From a bacterium (lineage in GTDB: Bacteria; Sumerlaeota; Sumerlaeia; SLMS01; JAHLLQ01): 64,000 nucleotides of DNA. The notes under the pieces were generated by a model, which ran no database searches, was not told the origin of the DNA, and was given only the letters and a program-made list of their open reading frames with translations. Of the stretch, positions 2,780 through 30,870 are shown piece after piece. The stretch spans positions 196,979 through 260,978 of the forward strand of contig JAHLLQ010000003.1 in assembly GCA_020444065.1 (NCBI GenBank), given 5' to 3'. Positions within the stretch are counted from its first letter, which is position 1, and every line of letters begins with the position of its first letter. The translations under genes and the position numbers were made by a program.

Positions 2780-2825
2780 ATGGAGCGGGACACCGGGCTC
2801 GAACCGGCGACCTCCACCTTGGCAA
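2780..2825 (-). repeat. Left attachment site: tRNA-Gly 3' fragment
   Basis: This 46-base block is identical to 30955-31000 and covers CCA, the acceptor 3' strand, T arm, variable loop, anticodon-stem 3' strand and the whole anticodon loop of tRNA-Gly(GCC). Similarity stops abruptly at 2826, just past the anticodon loop. It represents the original 3' end of the chromosomal tRNA gene, pushed away by the insertion. Confidence 0.93.
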
Positions 2826-3504
2826 TTCTCTAAGGCTAATAACCACAGTGCTATGCAATGCAAGAAGAGCCCCCGTTTGTCCGAGTTTTGCCATTATCCC
2901 TATCCCAGCCAGACCAGCCTAATCCCAACCATTCCCGACAGCTCTCCGGACATATTCCGGACAAGTCTAGGCCTGTTCTGTGCCAATTCACCGCCACCAG
3001 AGTGGATTGCCAGCCCGAGGGGCTCATCTCCAAATCGAGTGTGGGCGCAGTGGCCGTCGGAGGAAGAGGAGTGCTACAAAACTACTCCCACCCGAGTGAC
3101 AAGTAGCATCTGCATTGCGCCGAACTTCAACATTAATCTGACCTGCCCCCCAGCCCCCGCTCCGCCACTCAGCCACCCTCGACAGGCACCGAAACCCTAA
3201 CATACGACCTAGTACCGTGCTCGGGGGCAGGTCAAATCCGGGCATCTCCGTCGTTGGCGCAGGTCGGGTTTCCTGCACTGATTTTGGACAACGAGCCGAG
3301 ATTCCCTCGACGATGAATTACACCTTGCGCCTTGCGATCGCACCGCATAAAGATTGCACATTAGATTCGCGTTCGGCATGCGTATAATGCATGAGCCTTG
3401 CCGACTGTATGCAGCATACTCGCAAATCCGCTCAATGATTGATGGGGCGAATGAGTGCCCATAGTCCAATTCGTCAAGGCCAGGATTACACTAAGGAGAT
3501 GAGA
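2826..3504. promoter_or_regulatory. Left end of the element and leader of the Hsp70-like gene
   Basis: No gene is supported in this stretch. It contains the putative recombinase arm site at 2946-2963. A good -10 hexamer TATAAT lies at 3383-3388 and could drive the plus-strand gene starting at 3505; I see no good -35 at 17 bases (the best TTGCAC is too far). AAGGAG at 3493-3498 precedes the ATG at 3505 by 6 bases. Confidence 0.45.
2946..2963 (+). promoter_or_regulatory. Putative recombinase arm-type site, left
   Basis: CCGGACATATTCCGGACA is identical to 30871-30888. Each copy holds two CCGGACA repeats spaced 11 bases apart. Both lie inside the element, 121 and 67 bases from the respective core repeats, as expected of arm-binding sites of tyrosine recombinases or excisionase sites. 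Confidence 0.6.
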
Positions 3505-6261
3505 ATGTCGAAGAGTTCGGAGAATACGCACAATCTGGTGATTCCATCCATAGAATCGATCTACTTCGGCGACTCCCATTCTGTTCCTACAGTGATTTGC
3601 TATGATGGAGCGGAAGGGACTCCCTGCATTGGAAGAGCGGCATGGGCGAAACGGGCGAGAGGCGCGATGGTCAATACTGACTTCAAGGTCGATGTTGGAA
3701 GGCACTCTGCTGATCAGAAGAACCCAAGGAAGTTCCCGACCGCCGGAAGCGATGCAAAAACCAAGCTACAAATGGCACAGGACTACTTCCGGGCGCTTTT
3801 CGATGGAGCCTCAAATGACCTGCCGAACCTGGAAGAGAGATCGATCGGCATCATGGTTTCTGAGCCGATATGTATCGAGGGCGAGACTGTCAGCAGAGCG
3901 TGGGTCCAACAATACAGATCAAACATTCGATCTTATCTCACCGAAATCGGTTTCTCAAACATATGGTTTTTGCCGGAGCCATTTGCGGTCTACCAGTACT
4001 ATCGCCATGGTCAACGTCATCCACTTCTTGTTGGGAGGAAGCAGACCTGTGCGTTGGTTTTAGATCTTGGGGGAGGCACGTTTGACGCGTGCATCATCAT
4101 TACGACAGGACAGGGGGATGTGAGCAAGAATCTTCGCATGGCGGATGCCGCTTCAGCGGGTTCGATCCCCGTCGGAGGATTCGATCTGAACCGACGTCTG
4201 GCCAAGAAGCTTCTTACCAAGCTCGTGAGCACAGAGAAAAAAGTCAATCAGCAGGAACTAACAAGTGCATTCCGAGCTTACAGAAAGTGGGCTGCCTATC
4301 AAATCGGGGATGATGAAGTGACCCCCCGACAAAGAGACTTCTTCGTGAATTTCAATCGTCTCGTATATTCTCTGGAAGAACCGAAGATACGACTATCCAA
4401 TTCCATTCAGAAGTGGGGACTGAACTTAGCGCTTACGGGAAGTGAGTTGGTTGAGATCCCCGAGGATCCCTTTAACCTCAATAGCCCTATGATCCAACTG
4501 CGCCTGACCACGTCTGAGTTCCAAGAGGTTTTCATTTGTGAATGGAATGAGTACCTGAAGGCTCTCGTGGTGCAGACGATTGCCCGGCATGCCAGGCAAA
4601 ATGATTCAAGACCCATAGACATAGTGCTTCTATCAGGGGGAGGCGCGAATATTGGCTGGCTTCGCGAATTGCTTCATCGAGATATCGATGGTCTCGCGGA
4701 AGAGGTCCCGATAGTCACTGTCGAGGACTACCAACAAGTAGTTGCCCACGGTCTGGCGATCGAGTGCACCCGGCGATATTACGACGAAAATCGAGTGGGC
4801 GACTTCAGATCGGTGACATACAACAGGCTCTGCCTCAGGCTGTCTGGAGATGACTACGAAGAGCCGCTGCACAAATTCAAGAGTGTGACGGCTGATTTTC
4901 CATCATCGCTAGAACCAGGGGTTGTGCTTCCCTCGGCAATGGCAATGGAGAAACATATAAATCTACCTCTGCGCTGGAAAGTCAAATTGGACCACAAGCC
5001 TCGCAGGCGACTGGACTACGTTTTTGTCATTGATAGCGAGACGAAACCTGATACGGCTTGTCCCCAGAACTTCGAGGAAAGATTCGTTCAACTTCCCAAG
5101 AACGTCTCTTGTGATAGCAAGCTGGGGCTCGAGTTGCGAGTCGGTCATGATTGCTGTGGACAAGCCAAGTTCATCTTACAACATGAAACGGACAATTGCG
5201 AAGAAGTTTCGATCAGTGCCAGACCTTTTCCCATCGAAATGACTGACGCTTCGGTTGAGGAGGTTGCTGTTGAGGCTTATCTGGGACTGGACTTCGGAAC
5301 ATCCAACTCCTCAATGTCGTTCGTGGACCACGCCAGGATCGAGTACTTCGAGGCCAAGTTGGACGACCAATCGTACGTTGATACTGCGAGCCTCATGTAC
5401 GAGTTGCCCATGGTTCTCTCGGAGCCCCTCCGTGGATATGTATACCAAAGATCTAAGTCTGATGGTGTAAGAGCGGCCAGAGAATTCCTCGAGAGTTCAT
5501 TCATGATGTGCTACTCAATCATTTACATGGAGCTCTGCACTAAGGCATCCCAGACAGAGTCTAAGTGGTTCAAGAAGTTTCATGAAGCCTCAATTGGGAA
5601 GCTCTGGGATTTGCTGGTAAAGATTTCTTCGACAATCGATGATAGCTTTGAATTCGCAGGGCCTCTGCGTGATTTATTCCACGGTGAGCGCATGGCGCGG
5701 ATCGATCATCTGGTTAAACTAATCAATGCTGAGAAGCACGATAAGCAAAGCGCGGCGGGTATTGACGCTTCTTACCAGGTACGGCTCGTGGGAAGTGCCA
5801 TGGCCTCCGTGTTTCGGAGGTTCTCCCTTGGCCATTTCGAGTCAGTCACTGGGGAGCGACTCTCAGGTTGTTTCTCAGGGTATTTTAGAGTCTTCAAGGG
5901 GCTTGGTGGAGTGACAAAGGAGTACTCGTACCGAGGCCCGGAATCTCAGTATGATGGGAGACTCTGCCTCGTCTCGATTTCTAAAGGCAGAATTCTGCCC
6001 TTGGAACCTTTGCTGATCTTCGGGGATGGTGGACTCAACTCCCAAGAAAGCACAATCTGGATGCTTGATCGCCAGGTGAAGAAGCGGGAAGCGGAGTATC
6101 CCGATGGTTACTTCTCCTTCCGGGCCCCCACACTGAAGAGGGAGTGGAAGTGCACTCCAGTTGAGAATTCAGCCGTGTTCAGTTTCTTGAGTGGCATGCG
6201 GGATTGCGACCCCAACCTTGCCGCTGTTGGCGGTGGGGTATTCGAAGAGCGCGGCATGTAG
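3505..6261 (+). CDS. Hsp70/actin-fold ATPase-like protein with permuted motifs
   Basis: A 918-aa protein. Start chosen at ATG 3505 because AAGGAG lies 6 bases upstream; earlier in-frame TTG/ATG codons lack this. Residues ~183-197 read ALVLDLGGGTFDACI, the phosphate-2 loop of Hsp70/actin ATPases. Residues ~375-384 (LLSGGGANIG) match the adenosine-binding motif. The phosphate-1 motif expected at the N-terminus is not there; instead LGLDFGTSNSS appears at ~593-603, followed by another ~310 residues. So the protein is either two actin-fold halves in tandem, each with part of the site, or a rearranged Hsp70. No DnaK substrate-binding domain is obvious. It precedes a DNA methylase operon by 415 bases, with a terminator-like hairpin between, so it may be a separate transcript. 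A sensor or chaperone-like switch for the system is inferred, not shown. Confidence 0.75.
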   Translation: MSKSSENTHNLVIPSIESIYFGDSHSVPTVICYDGAEGTPCIGRAAWAKRARGAMVNTDFKVDVGRHSADQKNPRKFPTAGSDAKTKLQMAQDYFRALFDGASNDLPNLEERSIGIMVSEPICIEGETVSRAWVQQYRSNIRSYLTEIGFSNIWFLPEPFAVYQYYRHGQRHPLLVGRKQTCALVLDLGGGTFDACIIITTGQGDVSKNLRMADAASAGSIPVGGFDLNRRLAKKLLTKLVSTEKKVNQQELTSAFRAYRKWAAYQIGDDEVTPRQRDFFVNFNRLVYSLEEPKIRLSNSIQKWGLNLALTGSELVEIPEDPFNLNSPMIQLRLTTSEFQEVFICEWNEYLKALVVQTIARHARQNDSRPIDIVLLSGGGANIGWLRELLHRDIDGLAEEVPIVTVEDYQQVVAHGLAIECTRRYYDENRVGDFRSVTYNRLCLRLSGDDYEEPLHKFKSVTADFPSSLEPGVVLPSAMAMEKHINLPLRWKVKLDHKPRRRLDYVFVIDSETKPDTACPQNFEERFVQLPKNVSCDSKLGLELRVGHDCCGQAKFILQHETDNCEEVSISARPFPIEMTDASVEEVAVEAYLGLDFGTSNSSMSFVDHARIEYFEAKLDDQSYVDTASLMYELPMVLSEPLRGYVYQRSKSDGVRAAREFLESSFMMCYSIIYMELCTKASQTESKWFKKFHEASIGKLWDLLVKISSTIDDSFEFAGPLRDLFHGERMARIDHLVKLINAEKHDKQSAAGIDASYQVRLVGSAMASVFRRFSLGHFESVTGERLSGCFSGYFRVFKGLGGVTKEYSYRGPESQYDGRLCLVSISKGRILPLEPLLIFGDGGLNSQESTIWMLDRQVKKREAEYPDGYFSFRAPTLKREWKCTPVENSAVFSFLSGMRDCDPNLAAVGGGVFEERGM

Positions 6262-6676: not shown

Positions 6677-7987
6677 GTGGCGGCTGTTAAGTTGGTAAAG
6701 GGAGATTCTCCAACTCGTTGCTTCTTGGATCTATTCGCTGGCGGAGGTGGACTCTCGCTGGGATTGATGCTCGCCGGCTGGAATGGGCTTTTCGCTGTTG
6801 AACAGGATGCATTGGCATTTGGAACACTGAAGCACAATCTTATCGACGGGCATCCCAACTGCCCAGTCAGGTACAATTGGCCTGACTGGATAGAGAAGAC
6901 CCCGATTGAGATCAGACAGTTCATCCGAAAGCATCGTGGTCAGCTAGCGGCAATGAAAGGGCAGGTGGCTTTGTTGGCCGGCGGTCCACCTTGCCAAGGC
7001 TTTTCGCTCGCTGGACGGCGAAAGAGCGACGATCCGCGCAACGAACTCTTCAAGCACTACGTGACGCTGGTCAAGATATTGGCGCCCCCGTTCCTTATTT
7101 TGGAGAACGTCAAGGGTATCTCTGTTGCGTTTAGGAAACAGGCCCACGCAAATAGTGGAGAGAGTGCCTGCTTCCTCAGGCCATTTTCTGAGCGTATCAA
7201 GCGGAGCCTGACCAGAGCCGGGTATGCAGTGTTCACCCAGCTTGTGCATGGAACGGACGTAGGAGTCCCCCAATTCCGGCCAAGGTATATCATGCTCGCG
7301 ATTCGCAGGGATCTACTTACCGATCACCCCGGTCTAGATCCATTCGCGGATTTCCATGAGCGTCGTGAGAAGTTCCTGAAATCCAAAGGTTTGCCGGTGA
7401 ATCGACCGGTGACCGTGAGACAGGCGATATCGGATCTGGAGGTGCGGAACAAGACGATCATCGATTGCGTCGATTCGGCAAGAAGTAAGCAGATTAAGTA
7501 CAAGCGGCCTCTCAGCAAGTACCAGCGCCTCTTGCATGGGCATCTCAATGGCACTGCCCCCAATAGCATGCGTTTGGCCAACCACGGAGAAGATGTGACT
7601 GCGCGGTTCACCCAGATACTTGAGACTTGCCGGAAAGGCGTCCAGCTTTCGGCATCTGATCGAGAGCGATTCCACCTCAAGAAGCACTGCACTGTTCCGC
7701 TTGATCCGGATAGGCCCTCCCATACCTTGACCACTCTGCCGGATGACCTTCTGCACTACTCAGAGCCCAGAGTTTTGACCGTGCGTGAGTTCGCCCGATT
7801 GCAGTCTTTTCCAGACTGGTATGAGTTCAAGGGGAAGTACTCCACTGGAGGCGATCGACGTCTTCGAGAATGTCCACGCTATACTCAGGCGGGAAACGCC
7901 GTGCCGCCATTCCTTGCGGAGTTCGTTGGGAGAGTACTGGCTGACTTGTGGAGAAAGATCATCGGTATGGAGGAGACATGCAGGTAA
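6677..7987 (+). CDS. DNA (cytosine-5-)-methyltransferase
   Basis: A 436-aa C5-cytosine methylase with all key motifs in order. Motif I is FLDLFAGGGGLSLG (16-29), motif IV GGPPCQGFS with catalytic Cys106, motif VI ENVKG from Glu143, motif VIII around QFRPRYIMLAIRR. A variable target-recognition region follows, then REFARLQSFP (motif IX) and QAGNAVPP (motif X). It should be catalytically active, using S-adenosylmethionine to make 5-methylcytosine at a sequence I cannot predict. GTG start with GAGGAG 9 bases upstream. The stop overlaps the next gene by 10 bases, so the two are translationally coupled. No cognate classical restriction enzyme is next to it; the downstream P-loop/nuclease/motor genes take that position. 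A Mig-type glycosylase closes the operon, which fits protection of the host from 5mC deamination. Confidence 0.93.
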   Translation: MAAVKLVKGDSPTRCFLDLFAGGGGLSLGLMLAGWNGLFAVEQDALAFGTLKHNLIDGHPNCPVRYNWPDWIEKTPIEIRQFIRKHRGQLAAMKGQVALLAGGPPCQGFSLAGRRKSDDPRNELFKHYVTLVKILAPPFLILENVKGISVAFRKQAHANSGESACFLRPFSERIKRSLTRAGYAVFTQLVHGTDVGVPQFRPRYIMLAIRRDLLTDHPGLDPFADFHERREKFLKSKGLPVNRPVTVRQAISDLEVRNKTIIDCVDSARSKQIKYKRPLSKYQRLLHGHLNGTAPNSMRLANHGEDVTARFTQILETCRKGVQLSASDRERFHLKKHCTVPLDPDRPSHTLTTLPDDLLHYSEPRVLTVREFARLQSFPDWYEFKGKYSTGGDRRLRECPRYTQAGNAVPPFLAEFVGRVLADLWRKIIGMEETCR

Positions 7988-10059
7988 ATCTAAACGATCA
8001 CGTCGTCCACTTGCTGGGTTGGCATGGACACTCATCCGGCGGAGTACATGTCCCTTTTCAAGAAGCTCCAAACCCAATTGGTCGGGTTATAGAGACACCG
8101 CTCATTCACAGATTGCGCCACTTGGCAGAGCAGATCGCGTCAGGATCCGAAGTGCACCCTCGGTGGATCTTTCTCGTAGGGGGGCCGGGGAACGGAAAGT
8201 CTGAGACTGTCCAGGACTTCTTGGCGAGTTTGGACGCTTCTCTTGAATTGAGAGGGGCGCTAACGAGTGCGCTCAGATCCAAATTCTCGCAGACTGGACT
8301 ACTTCCCAGAAAAGTGGAAATATTGGCTGAGGATCTTCCGCCCAGCGCGGGAGGTTTCTTAACCAAGGTGGGGCGCCTCTTGGTGATCCAGGATGCCACT
8401 GCGACCGAGTGTGCGGCAGGCAACGCTGCCCGAGAGCTTGCTCACGATATCGCTGATCTCCTCACCTGCTCGGGATCAGAGCCAATTCCTGTCTTCATCG
8501 CCTGTGCGAATCGCGGTCTGCTGGCTCGATCCATGGTCGAGGCTGTCCGGGAGTATTCTAGTGGCGATTCAGATAATTCAATCAGAGATATTCTGGCACA
8601 AGTAATTCGGAAATCAAGTTTGAGGCTTGGGGCAGACTCGACGCTGGAATCTTGCTGGCCACTCGAAGTAGATTCTCGATTCGCGTGCTGGCCCCTTGAT
8701 CTAGAGAGCTTAATGATCGATAGAAACGCCACTGAAGTTCTTGGATCAATTCTCGATCAAGCAACGAACGTGGAGAGATGGGAAGCTGAGGCGAAATGCG
8801 CAGACTGCAGATCTCGTGAAAGCTGCCCATTTCGGGAGAATGCCACACTCCTGCGCGACTTGGCGCATCGACGTAATCTCATCGCCATACTCCGCCGCGG
8901 TGAATTGGCATGCGGCCAGAGGTGGAACTTCCGTGACGCGTTCTCTTTAGTGGCCGAGCTGCTGGTAGGGCAATGGAGTGATTTCGAGGATTGCCCCCAT
9001 CCCTGCAAATGGGTGCACAAGCATGCCGCCGCCGCTGCGTCCACTCCCGAGAGCAGTAGCATACTTACTCTGGCGAGACGCTTGTATTTCAATTCCCTTT
9101 TTCCCAGCAACTCGATTCGCGATACAGTCTCCGCGTTCTTGAAGCAACATACAGATAATTCCTCGCTTAAGCCCTTGACCAAGAACCTTCTGGCCGAGAT
9201 TCGGAGGGGAGACGGTCTGGCCTCCTCCAAGCCGATCAGGGAAACGCTCCTGCGCGACTATTCTCGACTTGATCCAGCTTTGTGTACACCGAAGGACAAA
9301 TCACATGAGCTGAGGATTCTCGAGGATGCATTCTGCCAGTCTGCGGAGCAGGGCTTGGTGCAATATGGAAGCTCCCCCCCCTCTCCAATTGCATACCGCT
9401 CACTTCTTCTGTTTCAGTCCGCGGAACAGGAGTGCGAGGAGCTCCTCCGTGATTCAGATTCCGCCATGCTTGGTTCTTGCATTAGCCTACTTCGTAGCGT
9501 AGGATGCATGATGGCAAAACGGAGCTTTGGCGTTCTCTTCGGGCACCACTCCTTGGAAGAGCACTTGGTGGAATACGAGGCGGCATTGAGGTCACCGGAT
9601 CGGCTTTCAGCCGTAAGGGCTGCATTGCAGTCACTCCTGGGAGAGGCTGATCCCGGCTTTAACATGCTTGAGATCCTTGGACAACCAACTGCCGAGAAGC
9701 GACCGAGAGTGACCTTATCTGCTCAGCCTCCGGGAATTAGACCTGTGGCTGCTCCGACTGGCAACGAGTCCTCGCCTGGCCATGATGTACCGTGCATTGA
9801 GTTCAGCAACTTAGACTATCGGATCCCCCTCACATTTGACTTCTTCATGGCGATCCGGCTTCGCAAGGAGGGATGTGCTGGGAGCAGTCTTCCTGCGAAC
9901 GTCCGTGCTGCTATCGATAGGGTTCGCCATAGAATCGCAGGAGACCTATGCAGATCTGAAGAGCTATTCGCAGATGGACGGACCTCGGTGCGAATCGCTT
10001 CGCAATTTCAGATAGTCTTATCCAAGGTGGGCGAACGACCAACCCTAAAGAGGGAGTAA
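7978..10059 (+). CDS. P-loop ATPase of the methylase-linked defence operon
   Basis: A 693-aa protein. The ATG at 7978 is preceded by GGAGGAG and overlaps the methylase stop. Walker A is GGPGNGKS at residues 68-75; a Walker B-like strand LLVIQDA lies at 134-140, and FIACANRG further on looks like a sensor-1 segment. A Cys cluster C274-x2-C277-x5-C283 may bind zinc or a metal cluster. The C-terminal ~400 residues are helical-looking and unrecognised. Position and size parallel DptF, the first ATPase of phosphorothioation-dependent restriction, but I only infer this from order and layout. It could equally be a STAND/AAA ATPase of an undescribed family. It probably provides nucleotide-driven assembly or DNA surveillance. 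Confidence 0.7.
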   Translation: MQVNLNDHVVHLLGWHGHSSGGVHVPFQEAPNPIGRVIETPLIHRLRHLAEQIASGSEVHPRWIFLVGGPGNGKSETVQDFLASLDASLELRGALTSALRSKFSQTGLLPRKVEILAEDLPPSAGGFLTKVGRLLVIQDATATECAAGNAARELAHDIADLLTCSGSEPIPVFIACANRGLLARSMVEAVREYSSGDSDNSIRDILAQVIRKSSLRLGADSTLESCWPLEVDSRFACWPLDLESLMIDRNATEVLGSILDQATNVERWEAEAKCADCRSRESCPFRENATLLRDLAHRRNLIAILRRGELACGQRWNFRDAFSLVAELLVGQWSDFEDCPHPCKWVHKHAAAAASTPESSSILTLARRLYFNSLFPSNSIRDTVSAFLKQHTDNSSLKPLTKNLLAEIRRGDGLASSKPIRETLLRDYSRLDPALCTPKDKSHELRILEDAFCQSAEQGLVQYGSSPPSPIAYRSLLLFQSAEQECEELLRDSDSAMLGSCISLLRSVGCMMAKRSFGVLFGHHSLEEHLVEYEAALRSPDRLSAVRAALQSLLGEADPGFNMLEILGQPTAEKRPRVTLSAQPPGIRPVAAPTGNESSPGHDVPCIEFSNLDYRIPLTFDFFMAIRLRKEGCAGSSLPANVRAAIDRVRHRIAGDLCRSEELFADGRTSVRIASQFQIVLSKVGERPTLKRE

Positions 10060-10071
10060 TCAAGGTCACCT

Positions 10072-11625
10072 ATGGACGTACAAACTTTCGAAGGTGAGCC
10101 ACGAAGCACGTGTCACCCAAAGTACGAAGAGTCCATGCTCTTCACCACTGCCCCCGAGTGGTCGACAGGAGAGGTGCTGCTAGCGTCTGCCTACCGACGC
10201 CTCGTGCTTGGAATCAGCGAGAGGTTCGTAGATCTTGGAAACATCGCTACAATGCCGACATTGATGCCAGAGGAGGTGGGGGGGGAGCCGCTCTGGAGCG
10301 CATTGCTGCTGCAGCGTGATGGCATCGCAAGTCCACTGAAGCATGGTCAATCCAGCCCGACGGCCACGCGACAACTAATGCCAATCGTTCCGGCAACTGC
10401 ACGAATAGCGGGTGTATTGGGGAAGCGGCCAAGAAGTCGCTGGAATCCATCCAGTCTCCTGCTTGAGGCCATAGGAGCCGGAGGAGGAGAAGCCGACGGA
10501 AATTCCCTCCTGATGAGCCTTGGACAGGCCTTAGAGGTGACGGATAAGGATGACCTTTTTGCGCGATTCGTAGAAGAAGCTCTCGAGGCCGGAATGGAAT
10601 CCATTGCTCCGAGACCCCAAGACGATCCCGCTTATACTGAAGTTAGGCTGACCGAGGCGCAACTTAGTGCGTTCCGGCAGATGCCAAATGCGCAGAAGAA
10701 GAGCCCTGCCGAGCGATTCTTCCATGATTTGCCGGCAGTTCTAAATGCCAAGTGCAAGCTCACAAGGCGGCAATGGACCGTGCTGCTGGAGGCAATCTTG
10801 CGGTTGGGATTGGGAATGCATGTTCTATGGACCTGTCGCGCCAATGTGCTCGTCTGGGAGCTTGCTCTCTCAGCAGCAAGTGGCACCCAGCCCCCGGGTA
10901 CGAACGAACTAAGACGTCGTATTTGGGAGAGCCACGATGAGGCCCATCCGCTTCTGGAGCTGGGCTCGGATGCACTTCCATTGATCAAGAACTTGATTGA
11001 GCGATACGCCTATGCCCGGACTGGACTCAACCTTCTCCTTTGCCGACTTGAGGAAAACGGGAAACCTATCCTGAGTGACCAGATCATCGGGTATCAGCTG
11101 GCACAAGGGACTAATGCTCCGACTGGGCTCTATGAATTCCTGAGTCACATTCATGAGCATCGAACCATAATCGACAAGATCGACGCAAACAAGTGGCTTC
11201 GGGTCCAAGTTGCACGCCTTTTTGACGAAAGATCAGACATGCGCGCCTTGGCTCAGCGGAAGTCAGGGTACACAAGAAACCTATTCGAATTTGCCAGACA
11301 TAGTCTTGGTCAGGTAAGAACCAAGGACCCAGACCAGCGTTGCTACGATCTTTCTTACATGTTTGCATATACCGACGATCGGAAGCCGCTGCTCGTGCAT
11401 CCAGGTCCTGCCATGCTCCTTTGCATTGTTCACGCATGTTGTTCCGAAAGCTCGGACATTCCCGTTAGCCTGGACGACCTTCGTCGGCACTTGGGCGAGT
11501 ACGGGCTTCGAGTTCCTGCGGGTGAACTCATTCACGGTCGAACAGGGCAGGATCTAGCCATGCTCGGATTGGTTGTTGACAGTCCGGATGCCGCAGGAGG
11601 CCGCCTCCTTGTAAGACCACTTTGA
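10072..11625 (+). CDS. Unknown protein, middle component of the defence operon
   Basis: A 517-aa protein with no motif I recognise. ATG at 10072 follows the preceding stop by 12 bases, with AAGGT upstream. It lacks a signal peptide or membrane segments and has mixed helical composition, with a central basic stretch (AQKKSPAERFF, NAKCKLTRRQWTV). The central and C-terminal thirds are rich in long hydrophobic helices. Its place between a P-loop ATPase and a giant nuclease/motor protein corresponds to that of DptG in dptFGH clusters, suggesting a bridging subunit. That is inference from position only. Confidence 0.6.
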   Translation: MDVQTFEGEPRSTCHPKYEESMLFTTAPEWSTGEVLLASAYRRLVLGISERFVDLGNIATMPTLMPEEVGGEPLWSALLLQRDGIASPLKHGQSSPTATRQLMPIVPATARIAGVLGKRPRSRWNPSSLLLEAIGAGGGEADGNSLLMSLGQALEVTDKDDLFARFVEEALEAGMESIAPRPQDDPAYTEVRLTEAQLSAFRQMPNAQKKSPAERFFHDLPAVLNAKCKLTRRQWTVLLEAILRLGLGMHVLWTCRANVLVWELALSAASGTQPPGTNELRRRIWESHDEAHPLLELGSDALPLIKNLIERYAYARTGLNLLLCRLEENGKPILSDQIIGYQLAQGTNAPTGLYEFLSHIHEHRTIIDKIDANKWLRVQVARLFDERSDMRALAQRKSGYTRNLFEFARHSLGQVRTKDPDQRCYDLSYMFAYTDDRKPLLVHPGPAMLLCIVHACCSESSDIPVSLDDLRRHLGEYGLRVPAGELIHGRTGQDLAMLGLVVDSPDAAGGRLLVRPL

Positions 11626-11646
11626 TTTCGTGGATGGGGATACAGA

Positions 11647-14600
11647 ATGCACGCTCTGGCTAGCTACTTAAAGAAATACGTTGAGAGACACTTTGCTGCA
11701 GCCCTTTTGAGGGATCCGACGGCATCTGTTCGACCCGTCCTGATCGGCCCCCCGGACGAAGCCAATCGAGAGCTATTCTCACTCCTCACAGGGGGAGGCA
11801 CGCACGACTGGCAAGTCCCATGCGGAGGCAAGCCGCAGGAAGTGATCGTGTTGCTTGTGGATTCCCGTGAAACTCCCTCAGGAGAGGCGCTCTCACAAGT
11901 GTGCAACTGGGACTATGCAGTTTCAGTTCGCAACTCTGCGCCCCTGGTATTGATGCTTGCAAGCCGACACTCCTGGGATGTCCGTCCAGAATCACTGGCC
12001 AATACCACGGAAACCATCGGAAAAGTCGGCACACTGCGCTCCAATGAGGATCCTCTGCAATCTCACCTAGCAAATGTAGTTGCGGATAAAATCGGTTTGT
12101 CAGCAGATCAGGCCACAGAACTTCTGGATATCGTTTGCCGTGATTCCAGTTCCTTGGATCCGAGCTCGAGAGACTCCGCATTGTGGGAGGTGATCAATCG
12201 GTTGCTTTCAACTGACAAAACAGGATCTGCCATGGACGATGGCTCTCGAGCAACTGGACTTCCAGTTCCGGGCAATGCATCAATTGGTTTCCAGCGGGCG
12301 TATCAGACTCTCGATAGTCTCTCCCAATTCATTGCTAGAGAGGGGCTCCAATCTGCCGTTCAACAAATGAAAGCAACTGATGCCGCTAAGCGCCACAGCG
12401 TGGAGTCAGATCTTGATGGGCTGCTGGCACACCTTGCGCCCCAACTAACCTCTCCTACCCTGATGTCAACTGCACCAATCCACTTCTATCGGGCGGGACC
12501 TCCATCCCCTCAGTGGTACAATTCTCTATCAGCGGTCATCATCGAGGATCTGCTTTCGGAACTCACTCAGGGCACTGATCAGGGGCGCATGCGACTCGTA
12601 TGCAACAATGCACTCCAAGCTGCCAATCCCCTTCGCAAGGGACCCTACGTTGTCATTCAGGACGTGGAATTAGCGGCGTCTTGCCAAAGTGGACAGGCTC
12701 CATCTGACACAATCTTCACACGCAAAATCGATCGCACAGATTCAGCCCAACTGGCACAATCAGGACAAGATCCACTCCGAATTTCTGACCCTAGACCTCC
12801 CGAGCATTTGAAGGCCATCAAATATTCCGTTGCCGCCGCGAATCTACGCCCCGGCACCATTCAGGTCATATCACTCGATTCATTTGCCTGCGGCGGACTC
12901 GTGGTCATAAGCGGAGCTGATCGGAGCTCAATCCCCATCCAAACTCGAAGGAGCAAATCCTGGAGCCAGGAGCTCTCCATTTCTCGGGGAGGGGCCACTG
13001 AGTTGACCGTCTATCACTCCACGACAGCTTCAAGGGTTTGCCTGAGCGGAACGGGAGAGACACCCATTTGCCAGCAAGTGCCTCCAGGTTCTCCATGCAC
13101 GCGATTCAAAGTCGACATCGAGAACAACGATGAGTTCCATGTGGAGGTACGTGGCCCAGATAATGACCTGATGGGTGAGTGGACACTTCGGATTGCGGTG
13201 CAAGAACCTACAGAAATCTCGAAGTCTCGCCTGGAGGCACTCATATCAGAGCACCGCTCCAGGAAGGGCAAATGCATCCCCCATGCTCCAGATACATGGA
13301 TTCACCGCCTGGAGCTCGGATCCTATTTGACGTCAAAGGAGAGCTGGCGCCCTATCCTAGCGTGTTGGGGGAGTAAGGACATTGGACATGCACCGATCCA
13401 GTGGGAGGGCACGCGGCTGCTCGGTAACATTGAACCATCTATTGATCCGCGCCCCAATCTTTCTCCCCCAGAATCTCTTCTCAATGCCCGGGAGGCTGTG
13501 CGGATCAGGCTGCACGATGAACAGCGGTGTATTTCTGAGATTGAGTTGGATCGCCCTGATCTCGCCCCTTTGTTTCTTGAGTATCTAAAGCAATATGTTC
13601 AGTGGCTCGAACAGGATCAGGTTGGTGCCAGTTGGGTGGACGTTATCGCTCTATTTGCTGCGGAATGGAATCCTCAAGCAGGACGCGAAATCGCAACAGA
13701 TGAGCCGGTCGTAATTCTTCTCTCACCGCTCCACCCACTGCGGCTGTGTTGGCATGCCATAGCGCAGCGTCAGTTAAGGGAATCGCTGGAGCTTGACTGC
13801 CGCTGTCCCGCGGCTGGGCTTCTGGGTCCCATGCAGTGTCCAGATGCTTCGGTTCTTCACTTGTGGAATGGTAATGAGCTCAAGGCACGCTCCTTCTTCG
13901 CCCTTCCGTGCGAGCATACAAACTGGAGCGTGCTAATAAATACCAGCTTCTTGGACAAATCCGAATCTCGTGGTTGGGCGATGCGCCGACTTGCTGAACT
14001 GGGTTTAGATGTGCGTACAATAACGGGCGGCTTCACGGCCAACCAGACCCAAGATAGCCTCGAGGAGGTCGCCCAATTACTCCCGGCGCGAGCTACGTTA
14101 CGAATCGGGATAGTTGGAGACGCAGAAGCCTCTAGCGAATGTGGAAGAGGAGTCTTGAGATGGAGTGAGGAGCAGTACGCGGAGGATACCTTCCGTGCGC
14201 GTGGCTGTCTTGGGGTCGAGGTGTTTGATACGCGAGGGGGGGGCGATCCATCTCCGGAAATGCTTGCGAACCTGTCGGAAATCACCGGGGAACAAGTGCG
14301 CTGGTTCAGAAGAGACTCGAGCGCTATCGATTCTTCAATTGATCTGACCATAATCGACCAACTTGGCGTGCGGAAGCACGAAGGAATTCGAGGAGCAACC
14401 AGATCGGCAATCACGCCGGGCGGGACATTTCGAATTCGCATCCGTCGGGATTTCTCTGCAGCCCGCTCCATAGTGGAGTCCCGTGTTGCTTCAACTCGCT
14501 TGACTGGTGAAGACTTACCAGAGTTGCTCGCGCGAGCGATTCAGAAGTATGAGGAACAAGCAGCCCTCAAAACTGACTGCTCTCAGTTCCGATTTATCCC

Positions 14601-16890
14601 CAACAGCGATGCCATCGGTAGCCGTCTCGGAGAATCAACTTACCTTTCGATAACTTCAAGTCAGGTGGATCCTGCATGCATAGTCCGCGGTACGATTGGC
14701 CAGACGGGCTACATGTGGAACTATGAGCTACCGGGAGTGCTGGGGGAGGGGGCGGCAAGCAGTCTTGGGTATTATCTGGTCGCGCGTCCCAATCAAGCGA
14801 TGAACGATGCTATCAGTCGTGCCGCTGCGCTTATCGTTGATCCCCCACCTTCGGTGAAGGATCTGCTAGAGGAGATCTCAAGACGCGGAATTCCGATTCT
14901 GAAGCGTTTGGCTGCGGGAGGAAGTCAATCGCGTGGTGAATTGGGACTCCTTCTCGCAGCCCGCCTACTGCAGGATTCATTTCGAGGCGGAAACATTGAG
15001 TCTCGGCTACCCGTCCAGAAGGGAGAATGCCTCCACTTCGTTCTTCCGGTAGATCCCTACAGGGAGCTACTATCCCGATTGCGCGACTCCAGGATGGAGA
15101 AATCTGGCACGCTTCAACGACCCGATCTTCTCGTACTGGGAATCCAGTTGTCCGCCGATGCGGAGCCAGTTCGCATCAAGATGACTCCTGTGGAGGTCAA
15201 ATTTCGGGCTCAAGGAGCAAGCCCCTCCGAGATGCGAGCCCATCTTTGCCAAGCCCAGAATCTGGGTGACCTACTGAACTTATTCTACTGCAAGTTCGAA
15301 GAAACAGAGCTCTGGCGAACATGTACTGCAGCGTTGCTCTCACAGATTCTTGACTTTGGCTTTCGCATTTATGGCGACCCGACGATCCATCAAAGGGCAG
15401 TTGATGAATGGGCTGAGATACACCAGCGAGTCTTGCAGGATGTCTTGGAGTTCAAAGCAGATATGATTGTGAATGCTGCAGGTCGCCTGCTGATCTTTGG
15501 CGACTTCCCTGAGACAAAGCTGGCCGATTTGGATGGGGATTCAAGAGTGGATACTCTGGTCATCTCTCATCCGGACGCTCGCGCCCTGCTACTCGGAGAG
15601 GCACCCGTGACTCAAAGCCTCGACTCGAAGGTAAGACAAATGGATTTTTCTTTCCCAAACTGTCACAGTCGGACGACCCATGCCAAAGGTGAGGAGTCTC
15701 CTTCCTACACCTCACACCCTATCCAACTGGGGCAGGCCTTCCCAGATCGTGCTATGCCAGAAGTGATCATTACGGATCCATCGACGCCTTCCGATTTGGA
15801 GACTCCACCTGACGGGCTACTGGACAAGCCTGACACTACTAGTCGCACACATCGACTCCCAGGTTTCGTGCAGGCAGGTACGTCTGTGCCCCAGGAGGTG
15901 AGACAGCAGGTTCGGGACGCATTTGAGGGATTTATCGGAAATGAACCCGCGATAATGCGCCTGACTAACGATCTTCTACGGGCTCTCATTGAGCAGCCAC
16001 CTCATCTTGCGAAGAACTACCTCCTCACGGGACTTCCCAGTACTGGCAAGACCGAGTTGGCACGTCGTGTCGCCATCGCACTTGGACTGCCCTTCATCAA
16101 GCTAGATGGCCGAGGCGTTTCCAGTCGCAACAGACTGTTCGAGTTGATCAACGGAGAACTCGAGACGCACGGACTATCGCCCTCCCAGACGGGACAACAA
16201 CTGGGGCTCCCTGTTCTCGAGTATCCCCCACTCACAGTCTTCATAGATGAAGTTCACCTTGTATCGCGCGCAGTTCAGGAGACTCTACTCACGATGCTCG
16301 AGGCTGCGGATAGAACCGTGGTTCTGTCCGATCAAGTCGCCCGAGTTGATCAAGCGACATTCCTGTTTGCTACAACACGCGCCTCAGAAGTGGATGCAGC
16401 CTTCGTGAGTCGATGCGACGAGATACAGTTGCGCGAGTACTTCCAAGATGAGGTAGCGCTAATGGTTGCGGGGAAGGTAAGACACGATGAGTGGCCGGAG
16501 GAAGTCTACAAAGCGTTGGCCACCTTGGGACGGTGCGTGCCACGAATTGCAATCCAGCTTGCAGAGGCGCTTGAGACAGCGACCATCGTGGCCGAAAAGC
16601 CAAAGCCCCTGCTGGGCCATCTTGAAGATGTTCGGTGTGCAAGGGAGATGGATAAGAACGGGCTGACTCCGATGGACTTCCAGTATCTGTCGATTCTGGA
16701 AAGGTCCAAGGGGCCTGTAGGCGAGCAGAATATCCTTAATCTAATGCGAACAGTCGACAAGGATCGCATATTGAATGAGGTCGAGCCCTTCCTTGTGCGT
16801 CTTCGCTTCATTCGACACGGACCACGCGGACGGGAACTCACGAAAGAGGGCCTCGACTACCTCTTGGTCCATCGATTGAATGACCGGTAG
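11647..16890 (+). CDS. Giant protein: nuclease-like region plus C-terminal RuvB-like motor
   Basis: A 1747-aa protein. ATG at 11647 has GGGGAT just upstream. The N-terminal ~1100 residues are unrecognised and include a conspicuous SPLHPLRLCWH segment (HPLRL at 696-700). At 1159-1160 Pro-Asp is followed 23 residues later by Glu1183-Val-Lys1185, the spacing and context (hydrophobic strands on both sides) of a PD-(D/E)XK nuclease core. From ~1426 to the end it closely follows RuvB: FIGNE, Walker A GLPSTGKT (1462-1469), Walker B VFIDE (1531-1535) followed by SRAVQETLL, FATTRASEVD, and a winged-helix end with GPVG (1689-1692), VEPFLV and GPRGR (1725-1729). So it looks like a restriction effector carrying its own branch-migration-type motor. 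Order and length recall DptH, whose motor is of another type as far as I know. Confidence 0.8.
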   Translation: MHALASYLKKYVERHFAAALLRDPTASVRPVLIGPPDEANRELFSLLTGGGTHDWQVPCGGKPQEVIVLLVDSRETPSGEALSQVCNWDYAVSVRNSAPLVLMLASRHSWDVRPESLANTTETIGKVGTLRSNEDPLQSHLANVVADKIGLSADQATELLDIVCRDSSSLDPSSRDSALWEVINRLLSTDKTGSAMDDGSRATGLPVPGNASIGFQRAYQTLDSLSQFIAREGLQSAVQQMKATDAAKRHSVESDLDGLLAHLAPQLTSPTLMSTAPIHFYRAGPPSPQWYNSLSAVIIEDLLSELTQGTDQGRMRLVCNNALQAANPLRKGPYVVIQDVELAASCQSGQAPSDTIFTRKIDRTDSAQLAQSGQDPLRISDPRPPEHLKAIKYSVAAANLRPGTIQVISLDSFACGGLVVISGADRSSIPIQTRRSKSWSQELSISRGGATELTVYHSTTASRVCLSGTGETPICQQVPPGSPCTRFKVDIENNDEFHVEVRGPDNDLMGEWTLRIAVQEPTEISKSRLEALISEHRSRKGKCIPHAPDTWIHRLELGSYLTSKESWRPILACWGSKDIGHAPIQWEGTRLLGNIEPSIDPRPNLSPPESLLNAREAVRIRLHDEQRCISEIELDRPDLAPLFLEYLKQYVQWLEQDQVGASWVDVIALFAAEWNPQAGREIATDEPVVILLSPLHPLRLCWHAIAQRQLRESLELDCRCPAAGLLGPMQCPDASVLHLWNGNELKARSFFALPCEHTNWSVLINTSFLDKSESRGWAMRRLAELGLDVRTITGGFTANQTQDSLEEVAQLLPARATLRIGIVGDAEASSECGRGVLRWSEEQYAEDTFRARGCLGVEVFDTRGGGDPSPEMLANLSEITGEQVRWFRRDSSAIDSSIDLTIIDQLGVRKHEGIRGATRSAITPGGTFRIRIRRDFSAARSIVESRVASTRLTGEDLPELLARAIQKYEEQAALKTDCSQFRFIPNSDAIGSRLGESTYLSITSSQVDPACIVRGTIGQTGYMWNYELPGVLGEGAASSLGYYLVARPNQAMNDAISRAAALIVDPPPSVKDLLEEISRRGIPILKRLAAGGSQSRGELGLLLAARLLQDSFRGGNIESRLPVQKGECLHFVLPVDPYRELLSRLRDSRMEKSGTLQRPDLLVLGIQLSADAEPVRIKMTPVEVKFRAQGASPSEMRAHLCQAQNLGDLLNLFYCKFEETELWRTCTAALLSQILDFGFRIYGDPTIHQRAVDEWAEIHQRVLQDVLEFKADMIVNAAGRLLIFGDFPETKLADLDGDSRVDTLVISHPDARALLLGEAPVTQSLDSKVRQMDFSFPNCHSRTTHAKGEESPSYTSHPIQLGQAFPDRAMPEVIITDPSTPSDLETPPDGLLDKPDTTSRTHRLPGFVQAGTSVPQEVRQQVRDAFEGFIGNEPAIMRLTNDLLRALIEQPPHLAKNYLLTGLPSTGKTELARRVAIALGLPFIKLDGRGVSSRNRLFELINGELETHGLSPSQTGQQLGLPVLEYPPLTVFIDEVHLVSRAVQETLLTMLEAADRTVVLSDQVARVDQATFLFATTRASEVDAAFVSRCDEIQLREYFQDEVALMVAGKVRHDEWPEEVYKALATLGRCVPRIAIQLAEALETATIVAEKPKPLLGHLEDVRCAREMDKNGLTPMDFQYLSILERSKGPVGEQNILNLMRTVDKDRILNEVEPFLVRLRFIRHGPRGRELTKEGLDYLLVHRLNDR

Positions 16891-16893
16891 GAA

Positions 16894-17598
16894 ATGTTGT
16901 ATCCTACGGACCGGCAATTGCAGGCTCGACTAATTCGTCATCGGTGGAGAATTGCCGAGTTCCGTTCCAAGCTCCTTCGCTGGTTTCGGCTCGATGGACG
17001 CACCTTCCCGTGGCGCAATCCAGAAGCGACCGAGTATGAGATGATAGTCTCCGAACTCCTGCTCCAACGCACCCGGGCAGAGACTGTTGCCGTGTTCTTC
17101 CCTGACTTCTTCGATCGATTTCGATGTTGGGTGGATCTGGCCAACGCAAGAGAATCCGAACTCAAGCAATTCCTGGAACCCCTCGGTTTGTCCAGCAAAC
17201 GTGCTGCAACTTTGAGCAAACTCGCGAAGATGATGTTGAAGACTGATGGCCGCTTCCCGTCTGCGCGCGAAGAAATCGAGTCTCTGCCAGGCATAGGGCA
17301 GTATGTCGCCAACGCAGTACTGTTGTTCTGCCATGGATGTCGTGAACCGCTGCTGGATGTGAATATGGCACGGGTTGCAGAGAGATGTTTTTCGCCGAGG
17401 AGACTCGCGGACATTCGCTATGACCCGTGGCTTCAAGCTCTGTGCCGAGAGGTAGTCAACCATCGTCGAGCCTGCGAGATCAATTGGGCGATTCTCGATC
17501 TTGCCGCGCTCTTCTGCAAGAGAGAGATTCCGAGATGTGAGGAGTGTCCGGTGCAGAATTGCTGTCGCCACGCGAAGCGCCGGAGGTCTCGACAGTAA
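16894..17598 (+). CDS. HhH-GPD Fe-S glycosylase, T:G-mismatch (Mig) type
   Basis: A 234-aa enzyme of the endonuclease III/MutY superfamily, starting 3 bases after the preceding stop. FPWRNP (38-43) and SELLLQRT with Glu54 are the N-terminal landmarks. The helix-hairpin-helix is LPGIG (131-135), the catalytic Asp is D155 (LLDVN), and the [4Fe-4S] ligands are C208-x6-C215-x2-C218-x5-C224. The residue following the hairpin that decides chemistry is Tyr137 (GIGQY). Endonuclease III has Lys here and MutY Ser, while Tyr is found in Mig.Mth, the thymine-DNA glycosylase encoded beside the MthTI methylase. A MutY C-terminal 8-oxoG domain is absent. I therefore read it as a guard that removes T from T:G pairs formed when 5-methylcytosine deaminates, matching the methylase that opens the operon. 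Confidence 0.85.
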   Translation: MLYPTDRQLQARLIRHRWRIAEFRSKLLRWFRLDGRTFPWRNPEATEYEMIVSELLLQRTRAETVAVFFPDFFDRFRCWVDLANARESELKQFLEPLGLSSKRAATLSKLAKMMLKTDGRFPSAREEIESLPGIGQYVANAVLLFCHGCREPLLDVNMARVAERCFSPRRLADIRYDPWLQALCREVVNHRRACEINWAILDLAALFCKREIPRCEECPVQNCCRHAKRRRSRQ

Positions 17599-22921: not shown

Positions 22922-23641
22922 ATGAACACGACAATGCCCATGCGCCGTTCGAACGGCCGCAACCACGACTTCCAGAACACACAACCACAAAAGAACGCGA
23001 CTGATTTCCCGCCGCCGAATGACGAGGCAAACGATTCCGACTTCATCCGCCATGCAGCAGAACGGCTAGCCACCGACGATCATATCACATGGATTGCTGG
23101 AGAGCTCATTCAGGCCGAGGTCGAGGCCTTAGGTCTGCTGATCGATGCGAACCTCAGTCGCCTGAACGAGATGATCAACAACCAGAAGCCGATCTCCGAG
23201 GAGACGCCGCTGCTCGAAATCCTCGTGGCGATTCAAGTAAACCTCGCTGGCAGGGATCGAGATGAAGCCAGACGCTGGATCATGGCACGGCGGAGCTACG
23301 ATTGCTATCGACGGGATGCGATCTGGGAAGCGCTCGCATGGATAACTGCAGCCGCAGAACATGATCAGCGTGGTCAGGCAATCTGCCAGGCCACGAGCAG
23401 GGCATTCCTGCACGATGAACTAGTTCGGAATATGTACCAGCCGGCTGAAAAGACGATCGATGCACTCGAGAAGATTCTGCGTGAGGACGGCAACTTCTAC
23501 GAGCTGGCTCTTGCCCGACGGGAGCAGTACCTGACCCGGCAGCAGCCCAGAGACAACGACCGAAAGAGACAATCGGGGCAGAACAGTCGGCAGTGGTCGA
23601 ATGGAGCTCGGAACAACCGACAACGCACACCGAGTCGCTGA
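22922..23641 (+). CDS. Hypothetical protein of the element
   Basis: A 239-aa protein; ATG 22922 with GGAG 7 bases upstream. It is helical, with long amphipathic stretches (ITWIAGELIQAEVEALGLLI, ALEKILREDGNFYELALARR) and a low-complexity basic C-terminal tail rich in Gln, Asn and Arg (RQQPRDNDRKRQSGQNSRQW), suggesting nucleic-acid binding. I do not recognise it. A terminator-like hairpin follows it. Confidence 0.5.
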   Translation: MNTTMPMRRSNGRNHDFQNTQPQKNATDFPPPNDEANDSDFIRHAAERLATDDHITWIAGELIQAEVEALGLLIDANLSRLNEMINNQKPISEETPLLEILVAIQVNLAGRDRDEARRWIMARRSYDCYRRDAIWEALAWITAAAEHDQRGQAICQATSRAFLHDELVRNMYQPAEKTIDALEKILREDGNFYELALARREQYLTRQQPRDNDRKRQSGQNSRQWSNGARNNRQRTPSR

Positions 23642-23670
23642 TTCGCAATCTCATGTTTCACGCCACAGGG

Positions 23671-23706
23671 AGAGGGCCCGTCCACCGAGGCGGGCTCTTT
23701 CCTTTT
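23671..23706 (+). terminator. Candidate terminator between the hypothetical gene and ardC
   Basis: AGAG-GG-CCCG (23671-23680) can pair with CGGGCTCT (23691-23698), with a small bulge, around a 10-base loop, followed by TTTCCTTTTC. Confidence 0.5.
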
Positions 23707-23720
23707 CAAGGAGAATTCCC

Positions 23721-24593
23721 ATGTCCAAGAAAGTCTACGAAGTCATCACCGACCGAATTCTAAAGCTCCTGTCGCAGGGCACGGTGCCTTGGCGCAAGCC
23801 GTGGAGTTCCATTAGTGGCCTTCCGAAGAACTTGATCTCGGAGAAGACCTATCGCGGCGTGAACCTCTTCATGCTGGCATTCTCCGGCTACGCATCGCCC
23901 TTTTGGGTGACCTTCAGGCAGTGCAAAGAACGCGGCGGCCACGTTCGCAAAGGCGAGCAGGGCTGGCCAATCATCTTCTGGAAGGACCTTCGCCCCATGG
24001 AATCCGAGGGCAAAGGGACTGATGAAGATGAAGATCACCCCCAGTTTGTGGTGCGCTACTACACCGTGTTCAATGCCACACAGTGCGAGGATCTTGATTA
24101 CCCGCAACCCGAGATTAGGAACGCGGATTTCGATCCCCTGATTCAATGTGAGCAGATAGTGGCACAGATGCCCTATCCGCCAGCGATCACGCACGACAAG
24201 GCCCAGGCGTTCTATGCGCCTAAGCCCGATTTGGTGAATGTTCCGCCAGGAGAATTCTTCCAGACGGAAGGGGAGTACTACAGTGCCCTGTTTCACGAAC
24301 TGGCTCACTCCACAGGCCACGAATCGAGGCTGAACCGCACGACGCTCTGCGAGTCAAAGGGCTTCGGCTCCGATCCGTACTGCCGCGAGGAGCTAGTTGC
24401 CGAAATGACAGCGGCAATGCTTTGCGGACTCGTCGGGATCGACGGTGCCGTCATCGAGAACAGTGCCGCCTATATCGCCCACTGGATCGAGAAGCTGAAG
24501 GAAGATCCGAAGCTGGTCGTCTTTGCAGCCAGCCAGGCGCAGAAAGCCGCCGATTTCATCGTGGGCAAATCTGTTCTGAGCGAAGCCAACTGA
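23721..24593 (+). CDS. ardC: ArdC-like antirestriction protein
   Basis: A 290-aa protein from ATG 23721 (GGAG 7 bases upstream). The N-terminal domain reads YEVITDRILKLLSQGTVPWR, then KTYRGVNLFML, the ssDNA-binding ArdC/DUF1738 domain that also begins TraC primases of plasmids. The C-terminal half has a metallopeptidase motif FHELAHSTGH (H192-E193-x2-H196) and a downstream Glu in EELVAEMTAAML. In plasmids ArdC protects incoming single-stranded DNA from type I and other endonucleases. Here it travels with a complete methylase operon, so the element carries both defence and counter-defence. The xis-like gene follows within 64 bases. Confidence 0.88.
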   Translation: MSKKVYEVITDRILKLLSQGTVPWRKPWSSISGLPKNLISEKTYRGVNLFMLAFSGYASPFWVTFRQCKERGGHVRKGEQGWPIIFWKDLRPMESEGKGTDEDEDHPQFVVRYYTVFNATQCEDLDYPQPEIRNADFDPLIQCEQIVAQMPYPPAITHDKAQAFYAPKPDLVNVPPGEFFQTEGEYYSALFHELAHSTGHESRLNRTTLCESKGFGSDPYCREELVAEMTAAMLCGLVGIDGAVIENSAAYIAHWIEKLKEDPKLVVFAASQAQKAADFIVGKSVLSEAN

Positions 24594-24889: not shown

Positions 24890-26293
24890 ATGAAGAACCC
24901 GGAACCGGCCTACCGAAAGAGGCGATGGAAAAGCGTCGATGGATCGGTTAAGACGAAGTGGATAGTCGAGTGGCGAGCCATTGATCCCGGGACGGGCGAG
25001 CGAAAGGAGAAGCGTAGAGGTGGTTTCCTCACCAAGACGCAGGCACAGACCTGGGTGCGGGATCATCTCAAGCCCGCCCTGGAAGCCGGCCACATGCATC
25101 CGGACGATCTGATGCACGCTCGGCAGCAGGAGTGACTCGCAGCGGAGTCACGAGCCAAGACACTGGGCCAGCTCTTTCGTCTATTCACCGAGAATCGTGG
25201 CCCGGCATGGACAAAGAAAACCGAGGAACGCTACCAAAGCGCTTTCAACCTCGCGCTTCGGCAGATTGGAGATATCCCGCTTAGCCGGATTACTCCCAGA
25301 ATGGTCAGGGATTTCATGACGGCGGATTTCCGAGAACGCGCTGTGACGAACGACACGATGCTCACTCGGTACCGAATGCTGAGCGCCAGTCTTCGATTCG
25401 CTGTCGTTGAGCGCATCATGGAGAGAAATCCTTGTGATTCGGTCAAACCGCCACGACCGCGTCATGGCCGGCTGGTCTTCCTCGAGCTGCACGAATGTCA
25501 GAGATTGCTGGAGGAGTGCGGGAAGATTGAGTCCCGGAACGACTCCCTCACTTCCCCGGTGCTCTTGAAAGCGATTGTCGCGACCGCCATCTTCACGGGA
25601 GCGCGGCGAAAGGAGATCTTCCATCTGGAGTGGTCTGATCTGGATCGAACGATTGGAACCTGCCGGATCCAGCCGAAGGCCCATCTTCAGTTTAACACAA
25701 AGAGCGGAAAGTCCCGAACAGTCGGCGTAAACCCACAGCTTTTTGAGATCCTCGACGAGTTCCGTGCCGATCTTGGATGTCGTATCGAGCGGGCCAGGAA
25801 GCGAATGGTACGGCTTGAGCACTGGAAGGAGATCCGGAGTGGCGATGGGATCATGCAGGAGAAACCGCTAGAGCTGAAGAAGTACGAACGGGCACCCTCG
25901 ATCGATCTTCTCATGCAAAAGGTTGGAGGGCTGCTCCATTCGCTCGAGATGCAGATCGCTTCGTCGCTTCTGTTCCCCAGCCCGGTGTCGGGAGGTCCAT
26001 TGACGGACTTACCAAAGGGATACACCCAGGCCGTTGAGCAAGCTGGACTAAAGGAGCGGGGCGTGTGTTTTCACACGTTGCGGCACACGTACGCTTCGTT
26101 CCTGGTCAAAGCCGGCGTGGACCTTCCAACCATTCAGCAGCTCATGGGTCACGCCGACATCAAGACGACAATGCGCTACGCTCACATCGGCGACTCGCAT
26201 GTCGTTCAATCCGGTGCCAAGGTGCCGAGTCTATTCAAGAAGGAGAAACCCGACGAGGATCCGGTGCAGACGGCGAAGGTCGTCAAGATGTAA
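24890..26293 (+). pseudogene. Tyrosine recombinase (integrase), interrupted by one in-frame TGA
   Basis: One continuous reading frame of 467 codons, broken only by TGA at 25133-25135 after residue 81. Before it lies an arm-binding-type N-terminal domain (VDGSVKTKWIVEWRAI, GGFLTKTQAQTWVRDHL). The text resumes in frame with RAKTLGQLFRLF, the core-binding SAM-like domain, and then the catalytic domain. Counting the TGA as residue 82, the catalytic residues are R239 (TGARRKE), H395-x2-R398, H421 and Y430 (MRYAH), all present. ATG 24890 has GGAG 7 bases upstream. An internal product from 25301 would miss the arm domain. Either a recent nonsense mutation (CGA to TGA is one step), a base error, or rare readthrough. 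A selenocysteine is unlikely. Confidence 0.85.
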
Positions 26294-30543: not shown

Positions 30544-30870
30544 TAGCAATCTCCAACGACATGATATCCTATTCCGGCACACATGACTGCCATTGCCAAT
30601 ACCAACCGACGAAGGGGAATCGGGTTTCATCTCCCTGAGTTCTCGCAAGGTTTCTTCGGTGCACGATGGTCAACCGCCCGTGGGCCATGAAGCGCAGTGC
30701 TTTCGGAGTCTCAGGTCATTCGCTAGAAGTGGACACTTGCCAACTGTCGGGTGCAGATCGGGAGAGGAAACACTTCAAGGGTCTGTGTGGGAGTTGCTCC
30801 CTCCATTGGTATTTGCGATCCAGTTGAGAGGAGTCCTCCCCCCAGGATCATGCATGAGCCTTGTTCCAGA

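Follow-up and report, generated by a model that had tools for sequence, protein, structure and literature searches.

A C5-Methylase-Linked FGH Operon with a T:G Repair Gene and a RuvB-Type Motor Domain Points to a Fourth Lineage of FGH Restriction Systems

Results

Five Closely Packed Genes on a tRNA-Gly Island

The window, a 64,000-nucleotide stretch of DNA from a Sumerlaeota bacterium, contains five same-strand genes between positions 6677 and 17598 (Table 1). These encode a C5-cytosine methyltransferase (M), three proteins designated F, G and H, and an HhH-GPD glycosylase, with adjacent genes either overlapping or at most 21 bases apart. F, read from its ATG, overlaps M by 10 bases, and the gaps that follow are 12 (F-G), 21 (G-H) and 3 bases (H-glycosylase). 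The open reading frames lie exactly where a previous sequence-only reading, which proposed that this tightly spaced set is an undescribed defense system, had located them. An alternative GTG start at 7948 would extend F to 703 residues (7948–10059), but the ATG at 7978 is likelier.

The identical 46-bp repeats, one of them inside a tRNA-Gly gene, together with the tyrosine integrase, show the operon to be cargo of a 28-kb tRNA-Gly island (2780–31000). The island also carries an antirestriction gene and a ZacAB-like pair that is likely, from its sequence matches, to be a second defense system. The Hsp70/actin-like ATPase gene upstream of the operon has a homolog in none of the other loci described below, and is therefore excluded from the system. 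Immediately beyond the island end, two pairs of long direct repeats (871–1090 and 2117–2337; 85–95% identical, spacing ∼1247) flank a gene at 1134–2045.

Table 1. Coordinates of the operon, its motifs and the surrounding island features
Feature	Position	Strand	Details
attL-like 46-bp repeat of tRNA-Gly 3' part	2780–2825		identical to 30955–31000
Hsp70/actin-like ATPase	3439–6261		940 aa; upstream of operon
M, C5-cytosine DNA methyltransferase, complete	6677–7987	+	436 aa, GTG start; PF00145 E=6e-46
F, P-loop ATPase, DndF/SspF/MADS-F type	7978–10059	+	693 aa from ATG
F, Walker A GGPGNGK	8179–8199	+	invariant in alignment
F, cysteine cluster CxxC...CPF	8797–8832	+	two Cys invariant
G, DndG-like winged-helix protein	10072–11625	+	517 aa; AF2 model, fold match to 7exx
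H, nuclease-motor protein	11647–16890	+	1747 aa; hhalign to DndH, SspH-like, MADS H
H, HPLR motif	13732–13743	+	in the part that aligns with H of MADS and SspFGH-like loci
H, PD-(D/E)xK nuclease core D1160...E1183-x-K1185	15124–15201	+	invariant; aligns with DndH REase
H, RuvB-type AAA+ ATPase domain, replacing HerA/FtsK	16021–16431	+	PF00004 E=4e-11; alignment with cellular RuvB
H, RuvB_C winged helix	16654–16863	+	PF05491 E=1e-15
HhH-GPD glycosylase, MIG (T:G) type	16894–17598	+	234 aa; nearest PDB 1kea
ArdC antirestriction gene	23601–24593		on island
Tyrosine integrase of island	25301–26293	+	PF00589 E=1.6e-23
ZacAB-like pair	26654–28837 and 28840–30648	minus	PADLOC ZacB E=4e-20, ZacA weak; PLD nuclease domain
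attR-like repeat inside tRNA-Gly (30956–31032, minus)	30955–31000		identical to 2780–2825

F, G and H Are Homologs of the FGH Restriction Proteins

The motifs PCQ, ENV, QFRPR and GNAVPP of M can be found by eye, and the protein scores above the cut-off of TIGR00675. Neither F nor G has a good match to any curated family in Pfam or NCBIfam. The reference loci for profile-profile comparison were L082, L083, L086 and L087 for true DndFGH, L098 and L100–L102 for MADS, and L097 and L099 for SspFGH-like triads. The DptH family TIGR03237 gave matches in 0 of 274 genomes, and the true DndFGH loci were therefore drawn from plasmids via the HerA domain. L098, found by the SspF model together with L097, proved to be MADS. 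The annotated stretch of L099 contains no phosphorothioation genes.

The profile of F matches SspF-like F (hhalign, 95%, E=3.4e-8, 266 columns) and MADS F (72%, E=3.4e-5). Its comparison with DndF is not significant, but the DndF profile itself matches both SspF-like F and MADS F at 98–99%. The P-loop GGPGNGK[TS] is kept in 57 of 57 loci, and the cysteine cluster probably forms a Zn-binding insert in the lid; for DndF, PMC10853773 describes a Zn insert.

By sequence, the G profile has no significant hhalign match to DndG, MADS G or SspG. The AlphaFold2 model of G (pTM 0.88) has a sole significant PDB match, DndG (7exx; E=2.6e-4, prob 1.00, TM-score 0.35–0.39), and it is by this predicted structure alone that G is tied to DndG.

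The H family matches true DndH with E=1.5e-49 over a region spanning both the REase and HerA domains, SspH-like proteins with E=1e-15 over 577 columns, and MADS H with E=1e-9 (96%) in the HPLR region. The PD-(D/E)xK residues are invariant in 27 aligned H proteins and the pattern is present in 57 of 57 loci. The N-terminal parts of H have no significant match to the DndH N terminus, and a PDB structure search with the middle part (residues 545–1425) gave no match. The profile homology of F and H, the fold of G and the alignment of the nuclease core with the DndH REase together identify the middle three genes as FGH proteins, and the resemblance to DptF-DptG-DptH that had been noticed from order and size therefore reflects homology.

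The Gene Set Recurs in 57 Loci

Loci were sought in plasmids, 84,980 species genomes and viral contigs. A tblastn search of plasmids with H returned loci from Sinorhizobium, Rhizobium and Shinella, in which the gene order is that of the window with Vsr replacing the glycosylase, and a Pseudoalteromonas locus in which the set is rearranged. With H as a single-sequence query the genome contigs gave no matches; an H alignment, used instead, recovered 54 loci in the 84,980 species genomes plus one viral contig. The resulting census comprises 57 loci with a usable H, including the window.

Because the loci were retrieved through H, the other operon genes constitute unselected evidence. F, G and H are all present in 57 of 57 loci, with a 4-base overlap at the F-G and G-H junctions in most, and a C5 methylase is likewise found in all 57, directly upstream of F in 47. 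Recurrence in 57 loci, nearly all of them retrieved via H alone, exceeds chance and rules out a fortuitous adjacency. The survey for co-occurrence that the sequence-only reading had proposed thus finds homologs of the set together widely.

The 57 loci come from Alpha-, Beta-, Gamma- and other proteobacteria, Mariprofundus, a Phycisphaerales MAG and a Chloroflexi MAG, and include Pseudomonas aeruginosa PA7, rhizobia and plasmids. They are scattered sporadically over plasmids and islands, next to defense genes, and the neighbors elsewhere include AbiEii, type IV restriction genes and further methylase families; no relative was found in 38 other genomes of the window's class. Distances of F, G and H are mutually correlated at 0.94–0.96, those of M with FGH at 0.59–0.64 and those of Vsr at ∼0.43, indicating that F, G and H co-evolve tightly as one unit and that M and the repair gene have been swapped more often. 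In the Porphyrobacter locus (L030, 4902–6369) the methylase is split into two overlapping frames beside an intact FGH, which reflects either a sequencing error or a locus that naturally lacks M. In a Pseudoalteromonas locus (L025, 9454–9948 and 9956–14827) the N terminus of H is encoded by a gene of its own, with M downstream.

Vsr and a Probable T:G Glycosylase Alternate beside H

The glycosylase is an HhH-GPD protein (E=2e-12) whose nearest solved structure is the G-T mismatch enzyme MIG of M. thermautotrophicus. As in MIG, a Tyr occupies the position of Ser in MutY and Lys in EndoIII, and the catalytic Asp and Fe-S cysteines are kept. These residues lead us to predict that the glycosylase is specific for T:G.

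The gene directly after H is Vsr in 43 of the 57 loci and a MIG-like glycosylase in four: the window, the Chloroflexi MAG (L079), the Phycisphaerales MAG (L074) and Marinobacter (L078). Either gene normally lies within ∼50 bases of H. Neither is present in the remaining 10, of which at least two (L032 and L036) stop at or near a contig edge. In Aquimonas (L067, 15577–16155) a protein that looks by eye like GIY-YIG occupies the Vsr position. The pairing of a 5mC methylase with a T:G repair enzyme as operon partners, proposed previously, is thus conserved across the surveyed loci; the glycosylase form of that enzyme holds for the window but not for most members, in which the gene is Vsr.

On the FGH tree, the glycosylase-bearing Marinobacter locus is sister to Pseudomonas, which carries Vsr, and the glycosylase appears again in the Phycisphaerales locus as well as within the RuvB clade described below. 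This placement implies that the two unrelated enzymes have been swapped at least twice, the pattern expected if they serve to control mutation next to a 5mC methylase. Base-excision restriction enzymes do exist (see PMC10273834), and the glycosylase or Vsr could by analogy be a weapon that excises bases from invader DNA. The alternation of two unrelated T:G-repair families in one operon position makes this extremely improbable, and the PADLOC match of the glycosylase to a “Type II nicking endonuclease” is a family label that says nothing on function.

A RuvB-Type Motor in a Rare Clade

The C-terminal motor of H is HerA/FtsK in 55 of the 57 loci, and RuvB AAA+ followed by RuvB_C in the window and the Chloroflexi locus L079. 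A search of 400 genomes from the phylum of the latter yielded a third RuvB-type H, 46% identical to that of the window, in a 58th locus outside the census (L108), which likewise has F, G, H and M, with M convergent. The three form one clade of the FGH tree with support 1.00. The RuvB-like giant noted previously is therefore a correct description of the window's H but does not apply to most members; the RuvB-motor form is a rarer clade, of three loci, inside the proposed 5mC-marked FGH branch. The L108 genome also encodes a genuine DndC, at a site well away from the operon (L109; G1125 C22:37167–38471).

The RuvB-type H retains the Walker A, Walker B, sensor and arginine positions. Its presensor-1 segment, in L108 as well, has six fewer residues than that of cellular RuvB, in which the presensor-1 hairpin binds RuvA domain III (PMC9477746). 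The shortening of this segment suggests that RuvB-type H may work without RuvA.

In the main text of PMC10853773, DndH is reported to have captured HerA/FtsK domains from several sources and the motors described for it are all HerA/FtsK; the words RuvB and Vsr do not occur there. We consider it somewhat better than an even chance that this clade represents the first RuvB-powered restriction complex, in which a Holliday-junction-type AAA+ motor, RuvB without RuvA, replaced HerA/FtsK as the DNA translocase of an FGH nuclease for which 5mC signals self.

The RuvB domain and the HhH-GPD gene could also be read as parts of a DNA repair or recombination module, in which motor, nuclease and glycosylase process damaged or branched DNA and methylation is regulatory. 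We regard this as extremely unlikely, given that HerA rather than RuvB is found in 55 of 57 loci, that the operon is spread sporadically on plasmids and islands beside defense genes, and that its homologs are restriction proteins.

Comparison with Described Systems

PADLOC profiles match the five genes to no named system, in agreement with the earlier view that the set lies outside those described. The DndF, DndG and SspG models match neither F nor G, and the SspF model matches F weakly (E=1.2e-4). PglZ/BrxC and DrmA/DrmB, core proteins of BREX and DISARM, are not among the window's PADLOC or Pfam matches, and PADLOC matches to DrmMII and DruM were dismissed as generic C5-methylase similarity.

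The window does have the defining features of the FGH superfamily, namely F, G and H in order (57/57) and an intact PD-(D/E)xK core in H. The HerA/FtsK end stated for DndH, which is typical rather than strictly defining, is absent. DndFGH (DptFGH) shares with the set the gene order, a P-loop F, the homologous REase and HerA domains of the H family and the DndG fold. In contrast, its mark is a phosphorothioate made by DndBCDE, no 5mC methylase or Vsr partner is described for it, and the window's F and G are not recognizable by sequence as DndF and DndG. SspFGH and SspFGH-like triads have F and H homologous to those of the window's family, but SspFGH uses a single-strand phosphorothioate mark from SspBCD, and the SspFGH-like F proteins of L097 and L099, unlike that of the window, have fused NERD and kinase domains. 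MADS (mad2, mad5, mad7, mad8) likewise pairs base methylation with an F-G-H triad, but comprises more genes, among them a methylase of the N6 type, a specificity subunit and an F that is fused to a kinase. It has no C5 methylase, Vsr/MIG or RuvB motor; the window has the C5, MIG and RuvB forms of these features, an F of ∼700 residues without a kinase, and no specificity subunit. Type II restriction-modification systems with a C5 methylase and a V gene (Vsr or Mig) also pair methylase with T:G repair enzyme, but use a single restriction enzyme rather than an ATP-dependent F-G-H complex.

Because F and H are clearly homologous to their counterparts there, and G is by its fold, the operon could also be a known system, DndFGH, SspFGH or MADS, with an unusual neighbor. 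This is very unlikely: the PADLOC models for DndF, DndG and SspG miss F and G, no phosphorothioation genes are among the main neighbor families listed, DndC was not found in the window's genome, and the distinguishing MADS genes are all missing. The literature searched, which included the main text of PMC10853773, contained no description of a C5 methylase with FGH and Vsr/MIG, though an earlier listing of this branch may exist. The best reading is that the operon represents a new, fourth branch among FGH restriction systems, marked by 5mC and with a dedicated T:G repair enzyme.

Discussion

Considered together, these data make it quite probable that the operon encodes modification-dependent restriction of the DndFGH/SspFGH/MADS kind, with 5mC as its self-mark. 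From homology and genomic context we infer that it restricts phage or other foreign DNA, with a division of labor in which M would methylate a specific motif on host DNA, while G, through its winged helices, and the recognition part of H would inspect DNA, probably for absent marks. F would serve as an ATP-binding regulatory subunit, and the H motor would drive movement along DNA, allowing the PD-(D/E)xK domain to nick or cut where the mark is missing. The MIG-type glycosylase, or Vsr in most relatives, would excise T from T:G mismatches after 5mC deamination, sparing the host the mutations that its own marking would otherwise cause. In the window's clade, the HerA/FtsK motor has been exchanged for RuvB AAA+. 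Points that weigh against this reading are the ten loci with neither Vsr nor glycosylase, the split methylase of L030, the purely structural link of G to DndG and the absence of a PDB match for the middle part of H.

SspFGH damages DNA without its mark and is toxic when the mark is absent (PMC8092258), and by analogy with this homolog FGH would restrict DNA lacking 5mC. DndFGH has been argued to act against invaders as a standalone system, decoupled in part, with nucleotide sensing by F (PMC10853773), and SspE, which belongs to a sister system, is a mark-dependent effector (PMC8092258). FGH might accordingly be an abortive or modification-sensing effector triggered by a methyl mark, phage proteins or nucleotides, with M providing trigger context rather than protection. 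We consider this unlikely, since M is present in 57 of 57 loci and beside F in 47, unlike the decoupling described for Dnd, and since SspFGH attacks unmarked DNA.

If the restriction reading is correct, the FGH engine would be independent of the chemistry of its mark, 5mC joining phosphorothioate and N6 methylation, and its motor too could be swapped for another ATPase class. The proposed 5mC-marked branch is widespread, yet its F and G are missed by the PADLOC models used here, and its linked T:G repair gene offers a direct test of why 5mC defense systems need mutation control. Should the RuvB-powered form prove real, motor capture by FGH would reach beyond the HerA/FtsK class, and the self-mark would be freely exchangeable among phosphorothioate, N6-methyladenine and 5mC.
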